Below are positions 372 through 60,876 of a stretch of 64,000 nt of DNA, one piece after another. The stretch is taken from positions 1 to 64,000 of the forward strand of contig MPMM01000009.1 of assembly GCA_002238505.1 (NCBI GenBank). Reading direction: 5' to 3'. The notes beneath the pieces were generated by a model, which saw only the letters and a program-made list of their open reading frames with translations, was not told the DNA's origin and made no database searches. This DNA is from SAR202 cluster bacterium bin22. GTDB lineage: Bacteria; Chloroflexota; Dehalococcoidia; Lucifugimonadales; UBA3495. Every line of letters begins with the position of its first letter. Positions within the stretch are counted from its first letter, which is position 1. Made by a program: the position numbers and the translations under genes.

Positions 372-742
372 AAGGCCATCAATAACCGTCTCCGTTCCCC
401 CTCGTGGATGACTCTCATTTCCTTGACACGACCCCCTTCCCACCCTGGATAACCCGCCCCTACCATTAAGAAACAATACCAGGAAAGGACCAGCCGCCCG
501 GGCACAAACCCTGTCGCCAGAAACCCCTGTCATCCTGGGCAAAACCGGAGGCTCTAGAATCCATGCCAGAAACCCTGTCCTGTCAACCCCTGTCAGAATT
601 CCCCCCTCGCCCCTTGGAGAAGGGGCAGAAAATGAGGGAAACACCCTTTCATCAACCTGTTATCTGCCCCCATCCCCAGCTACAAAACAACAGGAAATGA
701 AAGGGAATAACAGGAAAAAACGAAATTCACCCTTTTTCACGT

Positions 743-14579: not shown

Positions 14580-14596
14580 ACCACAACTCCCCCAAA

Positions 14597-14936
14597 CGCC
14601 TTCACCCTGCATACCCCCTTCTTGCCTCCCAAATTACTAACACTCTCCCCTGTCCCAACTGCCTGACCATTGCCTAATATGAGAGTGGGTAGTTACAGGA
14701 GACTGTCCCGTTACAGTTGAGAAGACAGTTACAGGAGTGAATAAACCATGCCTTACAGGTCCCGCCATAATCCGCCTGTTTTCGCTCAGCTTCTCCGCGC
14801 ATAGCTTTGAATTGGTGGCGGGAGAAACCCTCAAACCGGCTCAACTGCTGACCGGCAAGTGCCCATGCTCAGATACAAAATGGACGCAAATGGCTACAAT
14901 TAACGCAGAATTTTCATTTTTCCTGGGTGGCCCCCC
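14597..14936 (+). repeat. 340-bp repeat F, copy 1 (inverted copy at 60326-60663)
   Basis: Shared blocks include TGAGAGTGGG, AGTTACAGGAG, ATAGCTTTGAATTGGTGGC, CTGACCGGCAAGTGCCC and ATGCTCAGATACAAAATG. It ends near TTTTCATTTTTCCTGGGTGG. The reverse complement of 60326-60663 aligns over the full length with scattered substitutions. It does not code for an evident protein. It may be a non-autonomous mobile element or IS remnant. Confidence 0.8.
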
Positions 14937-14972
14937 TGGGCCAGCCTGAATGTGCAGTCGCCCATGCCGAAA

Positions 14973-41313: not shown

Positions 41314-41374
41314 CCCCACCCCAATCTACAAGACAACCAGAAATGACCGGAAGAGAATTGGAAAGGAATTTTTC

Positions 41375-41822
41375 CCCCTCTCCCTATGGGAGAGGGGCCG
41401 GGGGTGAGGGCAACCCACCAAACCATGTCATCCTGAGCGAAGCCGAAGGATCTAATATCCTAACTAGAAACCATGCCCACCCAACCGCAACCAACATCAA
41501 GACCAAACATCTCCCCCCTCGCCCCATGGGAGAGGGGCCGGGGGTGAGGGCAACCCCTGTCATCCTGAGCGCAGCCGAAGGACCTAAAATCCATACCACA
41601 TACCATGCCCACCCAACCGCAACCAACATTAATAACAAACATCCCCCCCTCTCCCTATGGGAGAGGGGCCGGGGGTGAGGGCCCCCACCAACCCATGTCA
41701 TCCTGAGCAAAGCCGAAGGATCCAAAATCCTAACCAGAGATAACGCCCACCCAACCGCAACCAACATCAAACCCAAACATCTCCCCTCTCCCTATGGGAG
41801 AGGGGCCGGGGGTGAGGGCACC
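41375..41822. repeat. Tandem array, about 3.3 units of 131-140 bp
   Basis: Each unit carries a hairpin (CTCTCCCTATGGGAGAGG), GGGGGTGAGGGC, CATCCTGAGC..AGCCGAAGGA and GCCCACCCAACCGCAACC followed by AACAT. The hairpin starts recur at about 41381, 41521, 41652 and 41789. A partial fourth unit ends the array. Confidence 0.85.
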
Positions 41823-41828
41823 CCCCCT

Positions 41829-46889: not shown

Positions 46890-48440
46890 CTACTTCCCGT
46901 CCTTGATATGGTCGGCTATTTTCTCCCCGATGGCCAGCGTGGTCACGTTGGTATTGGCGCGGATGCAGTCGGGCATTATCGATGCGTCCACTATCCGCAG
47001 CCCCTCCAGCCCGTGCACCTTGCCATACTGGTCCACCACTGCCATCGGGTCATCTGCTGGGCCCATCTTGCAGGTGCAGGAAATGTGCTGGGACGTAGTT
47101 ACCTCCCGCCGCATCCAGGCATCCAGCGCCTCGTCGGAAGCCATATCCTCGTCCGTGGGCGACACTCGCTCTTCGATTATGTCCTTAAAGGCTTCGTCGT
47201 TGCCCAGGTCAACGCATACGCGCACCGACTCCCGCAGCCTGCGGACGTCAAAATCCTCCTGCAGGTAGTTGTAGTCCAGAATGGGCTGCTCCGTCGGGTC
47301 GGCCGATGCCAGCCTCAGCTCACCCGCGCCCACCGCCAGGTAGATTCCGGCGGTCATGCGGATTCCCAGCGGCGCCATCCGGTTGCCGCCCAGGTTGACC
47401 CGTTCGGTGGCGAAAGACTGCATGGTTATCTTCATATCGTTCCGCAGGTCCGAATTCTCTGCGGTGTAGCGCAGGGTAAGCTGGGCCCGGGGCTTCAGGC
47501 CGTCCAGCTCAAATCCCTCCTTGGTGCGCCACGTAACCCACACGCCGGGATGGTCCCGCAGGTTCTGCCCCACGCCTGGCTTGTCCAGCACCACCGGAAT
47601 GCCCAGGCTGTTCAGGTGGTCGGCAGGCCCAACGCCGGACAGCATCATAATTTGCGGCGACCCAACGGCCCCGGCCGACAGGATTATCTCATCCCCCTCC
47701 ACCACGAAGGTCTCTCCGCCGCTTTCCACCTCCACGCCGGTGGCCCGGTTGCCCTCGAATACCAGCCTGTGTACCAGGCAGTTGGGGCGGATGGTCAGGT
47801 TCATTCGGTGCCTGGCCTGGTCCAGGTAGCCCATGGCCGTGCTGATGCGGATTCCGTTGGGGTTGTTCAGCGGCGTTGGCCCCACCCCGCTGGTATCCGG
47901 GTGATTGTGGTCGGGGCAGTCGGGATAGCCGGCGGAAATGGCGGCGCTGTAGAAGGCATGCTGGGCCGGCAGCCAGTCTTCCCGCTTGAATCGGTGCATG
48001 ACTATGGGGCCGTCGCCGCCGTGAAAGTCGTCGCCGCCGTAGTCAGTATCCGTCTCGATACGTCGGAAGTAGGGCAGCAGGCTGGTAAATGTCCACTCGC
48101 TGTTTCCGAAAGATGCCCAGGTATCATAGTCCTCCGGCACGCCCCGCAGGAATACCTGCCCGTTGATAGCGCTGGAGCCGCCCGTCACCTTGCCCCGGGG
48201 CACCATCATGGGCGGCGCCTCGTCGGTGGCCCTGCCCACGAACTGCCAGTTGTGGTCGCTGGTCATTACGTCAGCCTCGGTGGCGTAGCCGAACTTCACC
48301 TCCTCTGGCAGGTCCTCGAAGTTGGCGTAGTCCGCTCCCGCCTCCAGAAGCAGCACCGACTTGCTGGAGTCTTCAGTTAGCCGGGTGGCCAGAATCGCAC
48401 CCGCGGATCCGGCGCCGATAATCACGTAATCGTATTTCAT
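46890..48440 (-). CDS. GMC-family FAD oxidoreductase
   Basis: The 516-residue flavoprotein begins YDYVIIGAGSAGAILATRL and has the GMC signatures (MVPRGKVTGGSSAINGQVFLRG, LSAGAVGSPQIMMLSGVGP). The C-terminal active site shows His in TTSQHISCTCKMG and VDASIMPDC. It oxidises an alcohol such as choline, a glucose derivative or a hydroxylated organic. GGAGG lies seven bases before ATG 48440. No partner gene defines the substrate. Confidence 0.92.
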   Translation of the reverse strand: MKYDYVIIGAGSAGAILATRLTEDSSKSVLLLEAGADYANFEDLPEEVKFGYATEADVMTSDHNWQFVGRATDEAPPMMVPRGKVTGGSSAINGQVFLRGVPEDYDTWASFGNSEWTFTSLLPYFRRIETDTDYGGDDFHGGDGPIVMHRFKREDWLPAQHAFYSAAISAGYPDCPDHNHPDTSGVGPTPLNNPNGIRISTAMGYLDQARHRMNLTIRPNCLVHRLVFEGNRATGVEVESGGETFVVEGDEIILSAGAVGSPQIMMLSGVGPADHLNSLGIPVVLDKPGVGQNLRDHPGVWVTWRTKEGFELDGLKPRAQLTLRYTAENSDLRNDMKITMQSFATERVNLGGNRMAPLGIRMTAGIYLAVGAGELRLASADPTEQPILDYNYLQEDFDVRRLRESVRVCVDLGNDEAFKDIIEERVSPTDEDMASDEALDAWMRREVTTSQHISCTCKMGPADDPMAVVDQYGKVHGLEGLRIVDASIMPDCIRANTNVTTLAIGEKIADHIKDGK

Positions 48441-49094
48441 TAACCGCCTCCGTGTTTCCCACTGGCTGGTTCGATTTCAGGATGGGCGTAGCGTAATAGT
48501 CAGCTAGGACGGTGTCAATGACGGCTTCAGCAACGAAATTACCTTCAGCGGCGAAAAAGCCCCTTTTCACCAGCGTCCAGTGCCAGAACCGCCCAACTCG
48601 GACCTGCAACGCACCCTGTGTCCCTGGTCCTCCGGAGAAACCAAAAATTGCTGACGTTACCCCCCTTCCCATCCCGCATAACCCTTGCCTATCATAAGAA
48701 TGTGCCCAAAAATAACGGACTAAGAAGAACTGGGGAAAGGCCGGGGAAGTCTGCCGCCACCTCGGCATCAGCCCCGAAAACTCCGGCAAAACAGTGGCGG
48801 AACACCCTTTCATCAGCCCTGCATTTCCTGTCAAATTAAAGAAACTCCCAGATACAAAATGACAGTAAACGCGAGGAAATGACTGGAGAAAAACTTTTTC
48901 TCTCTGAGGGCTTTGCACAATAGATCGGCATTCAAGGTAATTGGACCGCCTTCTGCACGAGGAATCGCAACCAGACAGATTCATTGCCCAAGGCCATCGC
49001 TAAATCGGAAGACACCAAACTTCCCGCCAACCCCTGAATCCTGATACACTGACCGGGCAGACATCCCGGTACACCGCCGGAAGGACAACATCTC
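48441..49094. other. Spacer with repeat E copy 1 and promoter of the coiled-coil gene
   Basis: The first 200 bp hold no recognisable feature, followed by repeat E copy 1 (48641-48908). The last 190 bp lead to the coiled-coil gene and contain GATACACT (about 49030) as a possible -10. Confidence 0.55.
48641..48908. repeat. 268-bp repeat E, copy 1 (left flank of the coiled-coil gene)
   Basis: It contains CCATCCCGCATAACCCTTGC, ATAAGAATGTGCCC, GGGGAAAGGCCGGGGAAGTC, GGCGGAACACCCTTTCATCA and AGATACAAAATGACAGTAAA. The second copy at 49561-49829 is in the same orientation with few differences. Confidence 0.85.
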
Positions 49095-49550
49095 ATGCAG
49101 CAGCCAGTGGAAGATAGATTAGCCGGTCTCGAAAGCTCCGCCCAGCGGCACGAGCAAACCATAGCCCGCCTGGACGCCATCCTCGAAAACCACGACCAAC
49201 TCCTGGAAAGACTCCTGGCCAACCACGAAGCCCTGCAAGCCAGCCAGGTTCGCCTGGAATCCAACCAGGAAGCCCTGCAAGCCAGCCAGGTTCGCCTGGA
49301 ATCCAACCAGGAACGCATGCAAGCCAACCAGGAAGCCCTGCAAGCTAACCTGGAGCGCTTGGGAGCCGCCGAGCAACGCCTGGAATCCAACCAGGAACGC
49401 ATGCAAGCCAACCAGGAAGCAATCGTCAACCTGCTGGAAGAATTGACCCGTGACGCAGCCACCACCCGTCGCCTGTGGCTCCGCCTGGTTCAGCGCTATG
49501 GCTGGCTTGACGACGAGCAGAACGGGGCCCAGCAGGACCCGCCGATCTAA
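49095..49550 (+). CDS. Coiled-coil repeat protein flanked by direct repeats
   Basis: The 151-residue protein is nearly all alpha-helical. It has 14-residue (two-heptad) repeats of the type QASQVRLESNQEAL, present two to four times with slight changes (residues 46-115), corresponding to a 42-bp tandem repeat at 49230-49420. The C terminus ends LRLVQRYGWLDDEQNGAQQ. There is no signal peptide or membrane segment. GGAAGGACAAC precedes the ATG. Direct 268-bp repeats lie on both sides. No enzyme family is recognised; it could be structural or a binding partner in a cassette. Confidence 0.7.
   Translation: MQQPVEDRLAGLESSAQRHEQTIARLDAILENHDQLLERLLANHEALQASQVRLESNQEALQASQVRLESNQERMQANQEALQANLERLGAAEQRLESNQERMQANQEAIVNLLEELTRDAATTRRLWLRLVQRYGWLDDEQNGAQQDPPI
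49230..49420 (+). repeat. 42-bp coding tandem repeat in the coiled-coil gene
   Basis: CCTGCAAGCCAGCCAGGTTC followed by GCCTGGAATCCAACCAGGAA recurs with a 42-bp period from about 49232, then degenerates. It encodes the 14-residue coiled-coil unit. Confidence 0.75.
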
Positions 49551-50046
49551 CCGCTAAAGGCCGCAAAAACCCACTGACGTTCCCCCCTTCCCATCCCGCA
49601 TAACCCTTGCCTACCATAAGAATGTGCCCAGAAAGAATGGACTAAGCAGAACTGGGGAAAGGCCGGGGAAGTCTGCCGCCACCTCCGCATCAGCCCCCAA
49701 ATCTCTGGTGAAACAGTGGCGGAACACCCTTTCATCAGCCCCGCATTTCCTGTCAAATCAGAGAACCCTGCAGATACAAAATGACAGTAAATAAAAGGAA
49801 TTGACTGGAGAAAATGATTTTCTCACAGAAGGACTCCAGCGCCCCCTCTGATAACCCTGTTGCCCGGGCCCCGCTGCAGAGGCATTCCATTGTTCAGGTG
49901 GAGTATGTCCCCCTTCGCCTTGAGTGTGTCGAAGGGGCACCGGGGATGGTTCGGCAAGCCTGTCCTGAGCCTGCCAATTACGCTATACTAGGCCCCGCAA
50001 TTTACTGTTGCAAAACATTGTAATTTCTTGCTTCGGGGAGCGCCGT
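49551..50046. other. Spacer with repeat E copy 2
   Basis: The repeat E copy (49561-49829) is followed by a CCTTGAGTGTGTCGAAGGGG repeat (about 49914) and CTGTCCTGAGCCTGCC. A CTATACT box (49983-49989) is a possible promoter for the acyl-CoA dehydrogenase. No gene is supported. Confidence 0.6.
49561..49829. repeat. 268-bp repeat E, copy 2 (right flank of the coiled-coil gene)
   Basis: Same orientation and same blocks as 48641-48908. Both copies keep a minus-strand open frame (GNAGLMKGCSATV..), but this is more likely a shadow than a gene. Confidence 0.85.
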
Positions 50047-51183
50047 ATGGACCTGGGTCTTACCGAAATTCAGTTGATGCTCAAGAACAGCGCCAGGGAA
50101 TTCCTGTCCCAGGAATGTCCCCTCACCTTGGTGCGCGAAATGGAGGAGGACGAGCGTGGATTTACCGACGAACTCTGGCGGCAGATTGCCGGCCTGGGCT
50201 GGCCCGGCATCGCCTTTCCCGAGCAGTACGGCGGCACCGGCGGCAGCTTCCTGGACTTGACCGTCCTGCTGGAGGAAATTGGCCATTCCCTCACTCCAGG
50301 GCCCTTCTTCTCCACCGTGGTCCTGGGCGGCTTTACCGTGCTGGACGCCGGAACCGACACCCAGAAACAGGACATCCTGCCCGGCGTCTGCACTGGCCAA
50401 ACGCTGATGACCCTGGCCCTCACAGAAGCCTCCGCCACCTACGAACCCTGGGGCATCGAGACCACCGCCACCCGGGAGGGCGACGGTTTCCGCATCAATG
50501 GCCAGAAACTCTTCGTGCCCGACGCCCATGCGGCCGACGTCATCCTCGTGGCGGCCCGCACCGGCCAGTCCGAAGACCCGGCCCAGGGCATTACCCTGTT
50601 CTTCGTAAACTCTAACGCCCCCGGGTTGACGGTAACGCAGCTAAGCACCATATCCTCCGACCGCCAGTGCGAAATCAGCCTGGATGGCGTCTCCGTCCCC
50701 GCTGACGCCGTGCTGGGCGAGGTGGACGGAGCATGGCCCATCATCCAGCGGGCCCTGCATCGCGCCACCGCCGCCAAGTGCATTGAAATGCTGGGCGGCG
50801 CCGACGCCGTGGTCGAAATGACCGTGGAGTACGCCAAGCAGCGCACCCAGTTCGGCCGTCCCGTGGGTACCTTCCAGGCGGTCCAGCACCACTGCGCCAA
50901 CATGGCCACCGACGTGGAAGGCTGCCGGCAGATTGCCTACCACGCAGCCTGGAAAGTGTCCGAGGGAGAACCGGCCGAGCGCGAGGTCGCCATGGCCAAG
51001 GCCTGGGTCAGCGCCGCCTACCAGCGGGTCTGCAACCTGGCCCACCAGTGCCACGGCGCCATCGGCTTCACTAAAGAGCACGACCTCCAGCTATACACCC
51101 GCCGCGCCAAGGTCCAGGAACTCACCTACGGCGACGTGAACTACCACAAGGAACTGGCCATGCAGCACATCGAGGCGGCCTGA
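50047..51183 (+). CDS. Acyl-CoA dehydrogenase
   Basis: The 378-residue flavoprotein has the ACAD fold: WPGIAFPEQYGGTGGSFLDL, LALTEASATYEPWGIET, FSTVVLGG and the C-terminal QCHGAIGFTKEHDLQLYTRRA. It resembles the subfamily of short- or branched-chain/pimeloyl-type dehydrogenases. The catalytic base is not placed with confidence. ATG 50047 has GGGGAG upstream. The acyl-CoA substrate is unknown. Confidence 0.9.
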   Translation: MDLGLTEIQLMLKNSAREFLSQECPLTLVREMEEDERGFTDELWRQIAGLGWPGIAFPEQYGGTGGSFLDLTVLLEEIGHSLTPGPFFSTVVLGGFTVLDAGTDTQKQDILPGVCTGQTLMTLALTEASATYEPWGIETTATREGDGFRINGQKLFVPDAHAADVILVAARTGQSEDPAQGITLFFVNSNAPGLTVTQLSTISSDRQCEISLDGVSVPADAVLGEVDGAWPIIQRALHRATAAKCIEMLGGADAVVEMTVEYAKQRTQFGRPVGTFQAVQHHCANMATDVEGCRQIAYHAAWKVSEGEPAEREVAMAKAWVSAAYQRVCNLAHQCHGAIGFTKEHDLQLYTRRAKVQELTYGDVNYHKELAMQHIEAA

Positions 51184-58688: not shown

Positions 58689-58852
58689 ATAGTTCCGCCC
58701 AAGCAAGATATGCGCAGGAAAGGGTTGATTCAGAGTACCATATTTGGCCGTACGGCGGGTAGTTGGCCGCTGCCCAGCGGGAGTTCCGGTTCCAGTGAAC
58801 TACCCCCCCTCGGAACTAACTCCGGCGGTTCCCGGGGCGGGATCGGGATGGG

Positions 58853-60198: not shown

Positions 60199-60876
60199 GG
60201 GGAAAGCCTCCAATATAGCGGTAGATTTGGCTGCCACAGGTACCTATCCTATCATAATTCCGGGCCAGGGTTAGATGTCTCCGGGCCGGGGTACAGGGCG
60301 ACGGCACGCTGTAGCTGCCCCCACGGCACCCACCCAGGAAAAATGAAAGTTCTGCGTGATTTGTAGCCATTTATGCACATTTTGTATCTGAGCATGGGCA
60401 CTTGCCGGTCAGCAGTGGACCCGGTTTGACACTTTTCCCAGCCACCAATTCAAAGCTATGGGCGGAGATGCTGAGCCAAAATGGATAATTCTGGTGCGAC
60501 CGGCAAGGCATCGTTTATTCACTCCTGTAACTGTCTGCTCGACTGAAACGGGCCAGTCTCCTGTAACTGCCCACTCTCATAGTAGGCGAGGGTTACGCAG
60601 TCGGGACAGGGGCGAGTGTCAGTAATTCGGAAGGCAGGAAGGGGGTACGCAGAGTGAAAGGGCCTGGTCTGAATTTGCGGGCGGATTGAGTACACCTGTT
60701 GATGATATCGGGCAGCGCCAAGGCAGACACCCAGGTCTGCCCCTGTGGGCCTTTCCGGGATACCCTGATGTGCAGCGCCGCCGGACAGGCAGGACGGCAG
60801 GGCCGTACATTTACCATCTGGTAAGATACCGGCAGCTACAGAAAACCGAACCAATATTAAGACAGGGAGGCATGCC
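60199..60876. other. Divergent spacer with 340-bp repeat F
   Basis: The repeat occupies 60326-60663. A possible -10 (TAAGAT at 60822-60827) precedes the MmgE/PrpD gene. No gene is supported. Confidence 0.6.
60326..60663 (-). repeat. 340-bp repeat F, copy 2 (inverted to 14597-14936)
   Basis: The minus strand reads the same blocks as copy 1, including ACTGACACTCGCCCCTGTCC, TGAGAGTGGGCAGTTACAGG, CTGACCGGCAAGTGCCC and CAGATACAAAATG. No open frame spans the copies in common. Confidence 0.8.

Follow-up and report, generated by a model that had tools for sequence, protein, structure and literature searches.

A coiled-coil gene between two long direct repeats is probably the passenger of a non-autonomous cassette with short inverted ends

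A gene that lies between two long direct repeats raises the question of whether these repeats move it. Such a locus is present in the window, i.e., the whole stretch of 64,000 nucleotides that was analyzed, which represents bases 1-64000 of contig C13 of a 4.39-Mb genome in 58 contigs (G000). It comprises a gene for a coiled-coil protein, CC, and two copies of a repeat, R1 and R2, and it was compared with loci in G001, G002, G003, G004, G026, G034 and other relatives from the same genus or family. Chloroflexota bins like these relatives presumably come from marine sponges. Both genes neighboring R1-CC-R2 are ordinary genes, which were named by reading their sequences, without a library scan:

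46890-48440, minus strand: GMC-type oxidoreductase
Start at 50047, plus strand: acyl-CoA dehydrogenase

The gene between them has the following features:

49095-49550, plus strand: CC gene with ATG start, encoding a 151-aa coiled-coil cargo protein
49218-49418, plus strand: tandem 21-bp units (7 codons, one heptad), the number of which varies between homologues

An earlier note on this DNA had described a 151-residue coiled-coil gene with internal tandem repeats, and this description is borne out by the open reading frame at 49095-49550 with its 21/42-bp units at 49218-49418. The protein is predicted to form one long helix (residues 5-134; mean pLDDT 90.7). Relatives of 89-151 aa are present in the genus and the family; their N- and C-terminal parts are conserved, the latter as TRRLWLRLxQRYGWxDDEQNG, and the number of heptads differs. 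The dN/dS values of 0.19-0.45 indicate purifying selection, and CC is therefore a real gene that encodes a protein. G000 contains three such genes, on contigs C13 (window), C24 and C7. When a named family was sought for CC, Pfam and NCBIfam gave weak coiled-coil matches at most. A phage or viral gene was considered, and no relative was found in IMG/VR or phage records; the matches in a library of defense systems were of a generic coiled-coil nature. Two loci deviate in structure. At locus L036 (G000:C7, 11448-11835, minus strand), the N-terminal part of CC is replaced by other sequence, the gene is located directly downstream of a HEAT-repeat-like gene, and the right palindromic cassette end (see below) is intact. 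Locus L038 (G002:C461, 3138-3845) contains two tandem CC genes with 83% identity over 399 bp, next to which no cassette ends were detectable.

The repeat R occurs five times in the window:

48649-48910, plus strand: R1, the upstream copy, with the hairpin GGAGAAAAACTTTTTCTCTC at its 3' end as insertion target
49572-49832, plus strand: R2, the second copy, which together with 49833-49885 reads as a pre-insertion (empty) site
418-741, plus strand: degenerate copy without the gene, found by profile
14632-14928, plus strand: copy of a divergent subfamily, found by profile
60331-60627, minus strand: copy of a divergent subfamily, inverted relative to that at 14632, found by profile

Two direct copies do flank the gene, as had been claimed, albeit not as nearly identical repeats of 268 bp: R1 and R2 align over 262 bp with 87.8% identity. 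The degenerate third copy, also pointed out previously, is indeed present at about 418-741; it is not special, however, as the window contains two more copies and the genome at least 98 matches. R is a dispersed repeat of about 250 bp, the copies of which, when aligned, share a 5' block, TGACACTnCCCCCTT, and, on the 3' side, a block that ends in a hairpin, GGAAAAAnnnTTTTTC. A profile built from 11 copies, with up to 150 candidates scored per genome, gave counts that are lower bounds and that may include noise among the weak matches: at least 98 across the whole of G000, at least 49 in G003, at least 28 each in G002 and G004, and at least 8 in G001. R was also considered as a structured RNA and as an insertion sequence (IS); an Rfam scan of 48000-50600 yielded just a chance match, and the alignment of copies shows no inverted ends. 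The regions 14592-14940 and 60320-60667 form an inverted R pair with a spacing of 45 kb and a complementarity of 84-86%. Other dispersed intergenic repeats in the window are the pairs 6148-6253/20052-20157 and 18650-18842/45429-46831 (89-95% identity), and a tandem array at 41374-41825 consists of 3.3 copies of a 132/138-bp unit with the dispersed motif TGTCATCCTGAGCGAAGCCGAAGGATCT, related motifs of which occur as single copies at 522, 4660, 31690 and 31780.

It would be straightforward to regard R-CC-R as a 1.2-kb unit that either has the long repeats as its ends or gains and loses the gene by recombination between them. Homologous recombination between R1 and R2 could delete CC, and the two copies that flank it share 88% identity with each other compared to 74-76% with the R of G003. 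We nevertheless regard this explanation as very improbable. R is absent from both sides of the CC genes on C24 and C7 of G000 and of those of G001, G002, G004 and G026, the syntenic locus in G003 contains one R upstream of CC and lacks a downstream copy, and in G002 the same two neighbor genes enclose neither R nor CC, such that the site without the gene is a site without the repeat as well. R, on the other hand, is found at least 98 times in G000 alone, and other cassettes, described below, possess inverted repeats and 9-bp target duplications of their own. The conserved pairing of repeat and gene that the earlier note had proposed is therefore not supported, and the absence of the gene is not bounded by the repeat in G002, where this was checked. 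Since CC stands without flanking R and R is widespread without CC, both observations that had been named in advance as arguing against a repeat-bounded cassette were made.

What, then, are the ends of the mobile unit? Inspection of the boundary between R1 and CC revealed the following elements:

48909-48926, plus strand: left terminal inverted repeat GGCTTTGCACAATAGATC, with 2 mismatches to the consensus GGCTTTGCACAATGAATC
48909-48995, plus strand: left end region with the terminal motif, its internal repeat and the inverted motif ATTCATTGCCCAAGGCC
48909-49569, plus strand: cassette E as kept in the window, without right end and right inverted repeat

The terminal inverted repeat of the cassettes is 18 bp long, and their ends are imperfect palindromes; in the left end region of the window copy, the R1 model matches at 48909-48942 (plus strand) and 48951-48995 (minus strand). 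The 18-bp motif, which the earlier note does not mention, begins at 48909, right at the end of R1, with a chance expectation of 0.01 in the window. When up to three mismatches in 21 bases are allowed, it occurs at four sites in the 4.39 Mb of G000, all of them at the three CC genes, and with at most one mismatch in 18 bases a scan of 250 genomes of the order located it in this genus and in no other. At the DNA level, the window and the C24 copy are homologous from 48909 to 49556, and homology to the C7 copy reaches 49565. The cassette in the window stops about 18 bases after the stop codon of CC, where R2 begins, and contains neither a right inverted repeat nor a target duplication. Having lost its right end together with the inverted repeat there, the cassette in the window is truncated on its 3' side. 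Judged from these sequences, the cassette is quite likely mobile by its 18-bp ends, and R1 and R2 would not be the ends of the mobile unit.

Complete units were sought automatically as inverted motif pairs with flanking 9-bp direct repeats at 0-1 mismatch. Offsets of up to two bases per end were allowed, and a chance match at 0-1 mismatch is expected for about 0.3% of pairs under this setting. Six units were retrieved, to which that of G004:C231 was added:

G003:C58, 637 bp: duplication GACGCAGGA (9/9), protease cargo
G002:C19, 636 bp: duplication CTTCATTCC (9/9), protease cargo
G003:C37 12314-13515, 1202 bp: duplication CCACTTGCC (9/9), small partner and protease-like gene
G034:C1, 1206 bp: duplication GGTGCGTAC (9/9), small partner and protease-like gene
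G003:C21, 872 bp: duplication TATCTTGCG/TCTCTTGCG (8/9), small partner and protease-like gene
G000:C24, 762 bp: duplication CAACATCCT/CTACATCCT (8/9), CC cargo
G004:C231, about 684 bp: duplication GTCAGATGG (9/9), CC cargo, left end diverged

The seven units range from 636 to 1206 bp, and their 9-bp duplications are perfect in five and 8/9 in two cases; a few low-quality pairs that a relaxed search returned from other genomes were excluded from all counts. The mobile cassette of about 1.2 kb that the earlier note had suspected is thus supported as regards size and mobility, but not as regards its ends, which are 18-bp inverted repeats with 9-bp duplications. CC is the cargo in two units, and five contain a gene for a retropepsin-like protease. 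For G003:C58 and G002:C19 the latter was identified as a clan AA (retropepsin-like) aspartic protease, with PF13975 scoring above its cut-off and TIGR03698 (E=7e-12) below its curated cut-off; the protease call for G003:C21 derives from a DTG motif only, with no match in Pfam. Relatives of the protease are common on chromosomes across the order, and the cargo was therefore probably captured from there. ORF lists and Pfam/NCBIfam scans revealed no transposase inside any of the seven units. In the window, 45 bases (58768-58813) correspond to 2.3 kb in G003 (C37, 12078-14370), a segment that includes the 1202-bp protease cassette with its perfect duplication.

Could CC simply be an ordinary, vertically inherited family, with palindromes that serve as regulatory or terminator hairpins? 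The ends are indeed imperfect palindromes, and purifying selection maintains the gene. The 18-bp ends that enclose CC, however, also enclose unrelated protease genes, which are located at unlinked sites and have perfect 9-bp duplications, and whereas terminators should occur at numerous other genes, the motif is found almost exclusively in these units. Furthermore, the protease units of G002 and G003 (636-637 bp, 97% protein identity) reside at different sites with different neighbor genes. The divergence of CC also conflicts with that of the species. Between the window and G003, the synonymous divergence (pS) amounts to 0.28-0.30 for the flanking genes and to 0.55 for CC at the same site, whereas between the window and G004 the value for CC (0.29) is lower than the species level of 0.41 (ACAD). 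Vertical inheritance consequently appears hardly credible. As CC has diverged more between the window and G003 than the flanking genes, either independent insertions occurred in one hotspot or the gene was replaced later. The syntenic CC copy of G003 has good inverted repeats, but its duplication matches at 5/9 positions. For none of the 7 complete units was an orthologous site found that is empty and retains one intact target copy; for the cassette on C24, the search yielded no orthologue in the genus. On the basis of the sequence comparison as a whole, we infer that the cassettes transpose.

The window copy lies directly behind R1. Some IS elements are known to insert beside repeats (PMC1525189, PMC10132070). 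Using a profile of R 3' ends derived from copies that do not adjoin a cassette, the distance from cassette boundary to R 3' end was determined as 8 bp for the window and G003:C37 (the same site), 8 bp for G003:C58, 5 bp for G000:C16 and 20 bp for G003:C21, where the profile match ends further away because the hairpin has diverged. Four sites among 15-17 are R-adjacent, for which the binomial probability lies between 1e-7 and 1e-10 when the target size is generously assumed. Insertions thus have a statistically demonstrated, albeit partial, preference for the position immediately behind the 3'-terminal hairpin of R. On G000:C16 (476795-477160), a solo cassette end is separated by 5 bp from the 3' hairpin of an R copy, close to a lipoprotein-like gene.

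How the second repeat came to lie behind the truncated cassette can be approached via G003. There, the cassette borders with its right end on the flank that the window has behind R2. R2 together with this flank aligns without interruption to the G003 site from which the cassette and one target copy have been subtracted, with a score of 115; 500 controls with shuffled right flank reached a maximum of 74. R2 and its flank therefore represent an empty site, and R1-CC-R2 is accordingly most likely a product of rearrangement, for which the joining of a left part with the cassette to a right part without it is the most parsimonious history. R1 and R2 resemble each other more (88% identity) than either resembles the R of G003 (74-76%), and hence they separated after the split of the species or were subject to conversion. 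Two other histories have to be weighed. The same cassette may have been inserted between R copies that were already present in tandem, after which its right end was lost in the window lineage and the second R in G003. Insertion after R is the documented preference, and clustered R copies do exist, for example three matches near G000:C53:29308-29866. The flank junction in G003, though, demands a deletion of R with exactly placed ends, and the close similarity of R1 and R2 to each other is at odds with this history, which we consider unlikely. Alternatively, R-CC may have been duplicated in tandem and the second cassette precisely lost. The tandem CC genes of G002:C461 offer a parallel, but that duplication does not involve R, and precise excision including one target copy would be needed, so that we judge this course of events to be rather improbable.

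The explanation that we consider quite likely is that CC is the passenger of a non-autonomous, inverted-repeat-bounded cassette inserted beside R, and that the R1-CC-R2 arrangement was joined secondarily. The cassette possesses 18-bp terminal inverted repeats of the type GGCTTTGCACAATGAATC and no transposase, and a DDE transposase supplied in trans most likely cuts and moves it. Insertion takes place preferentially just after the 3'-terminal hairpin of R and creates a 9-bp target duplication, as a comparison of the units in relatives shows. In the window, the cassette lies directly after R1 and has lost its right end, and the joining of a cassette-bearing to a cassette-free allele, or an equivalent duplication plus deletion, most likely produced R1-cassette-R2. 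If this is correct, cassettes without a transposase spread cargo in an uncultured, host-associated Chloroflexota lineage, and at least two unrelated cargo types have the same ends and are preferentially inserted at an intergenic repeat that is common in the genome. This would explain small orphan coiled-coil and retropepsin genes at shifting positions, and it offers, with the end sequence and the target, a concrete handle for seeking the missing transposase. It also calls for caution, as the location of a gene between two long repeats does not imply that these repeats move it.

Several candidates for the helper were evaluated. An autonomous element with these ends was not detected by pattern searches in 250 genomes of the order, 50 of the family and IMG/VR. 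PF13737, which recognizes IS903-type transposases, matched nothing in the five genomes of the genus that were scanned, nor in control genomes. An IS5-family-like transposase gene is separated by about 90 bp from a solo end on G000:C28 and, when read by eye, appears to have ends of its own. IS701-type insertion sequences (NF049999, E=3e-93) with ends CTCGACTTTGTACAA are present at loci L100 (G019:C4, 2211-3661) and L138 (G034:C1, 3689-5140), and that of G034 is flanked on both sides by CGCTCAGCG, an apparent 9-bp duplication. This type was set aside as a helper since the cassette ends begin with GG and do not contain CTC. A different reading, which seems far-fetched, would regard the cassettes as a self-serving family that lacks any recognized transposase, moves independently of a resident IS and of an IS903-type enzyme, and homes to R ends; CC and the retropepsin cargo would then be retained for the benefit of the element itself, e.g., as accessory mobility or target-choice factors.

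Among known elements, the IS903 group of the IS5 family resembles the cassettes in its ends and its target duplication. The IS903-type ends GGCTTTGTTGAATAAATC from a Pantoea plasmid, accompanied by a 9-bp duplication, match the cassette ends at 14 of 18 positions, and 9 bp is the length listed for IS5/IS903 elements (PMC3281130). These elements differ in that a DDE transposase gene (PF13737/PF01609) lies between their ends. Miniature inverted-repeat elements (MITEs) are likewise non-autonomous, with inverted repeats, target duplications and solo palindromic ends elsewhere in the genome. MITEs measure about 30-300 bp and have no transposase gene (PMC4133298), whereas the units described here have sizes of 636-1206 bp and contain intact, conserved genes under selection. 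As with REP-targeting IS such as ISPpu9/ISPpu10 (PMC1525189) and IS1202-family elements beside dif sites (PMC10132070), insertion occurs at a defined position within or next to a sequence that is dispersed over the chromosome; here, in contrast, the target is a repeat of about 250 bp and not a REP, the units are non-autonomous, and the preference extends to a part of the loci (about 4 of 15-17). The closest parallel is provided by mobile insertion cassettes (MICs), elements without a transposase that are moved by an IS (PMC3281130, PMC4133298), the first of which, as far as related in papers citing Chen et al. 1999 (PMC2266710, PMC6542083), was MIC231 of Bacillus cereus. The likeness extends to IS-type inverted repeats, target duplications, a passenger gene and the lack of an internal transposase. 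The cassettes reported here are distinguished from MICs by another end sequence with an extra internal palindrome, a 9-bp duplication, coiled-coil or retropepsin cargo, frequent insertion beside a dispersed repeat and, in the searches described above, the lack of a helper IS, and as a family without a transposase of its own they fit this already known kind of element.
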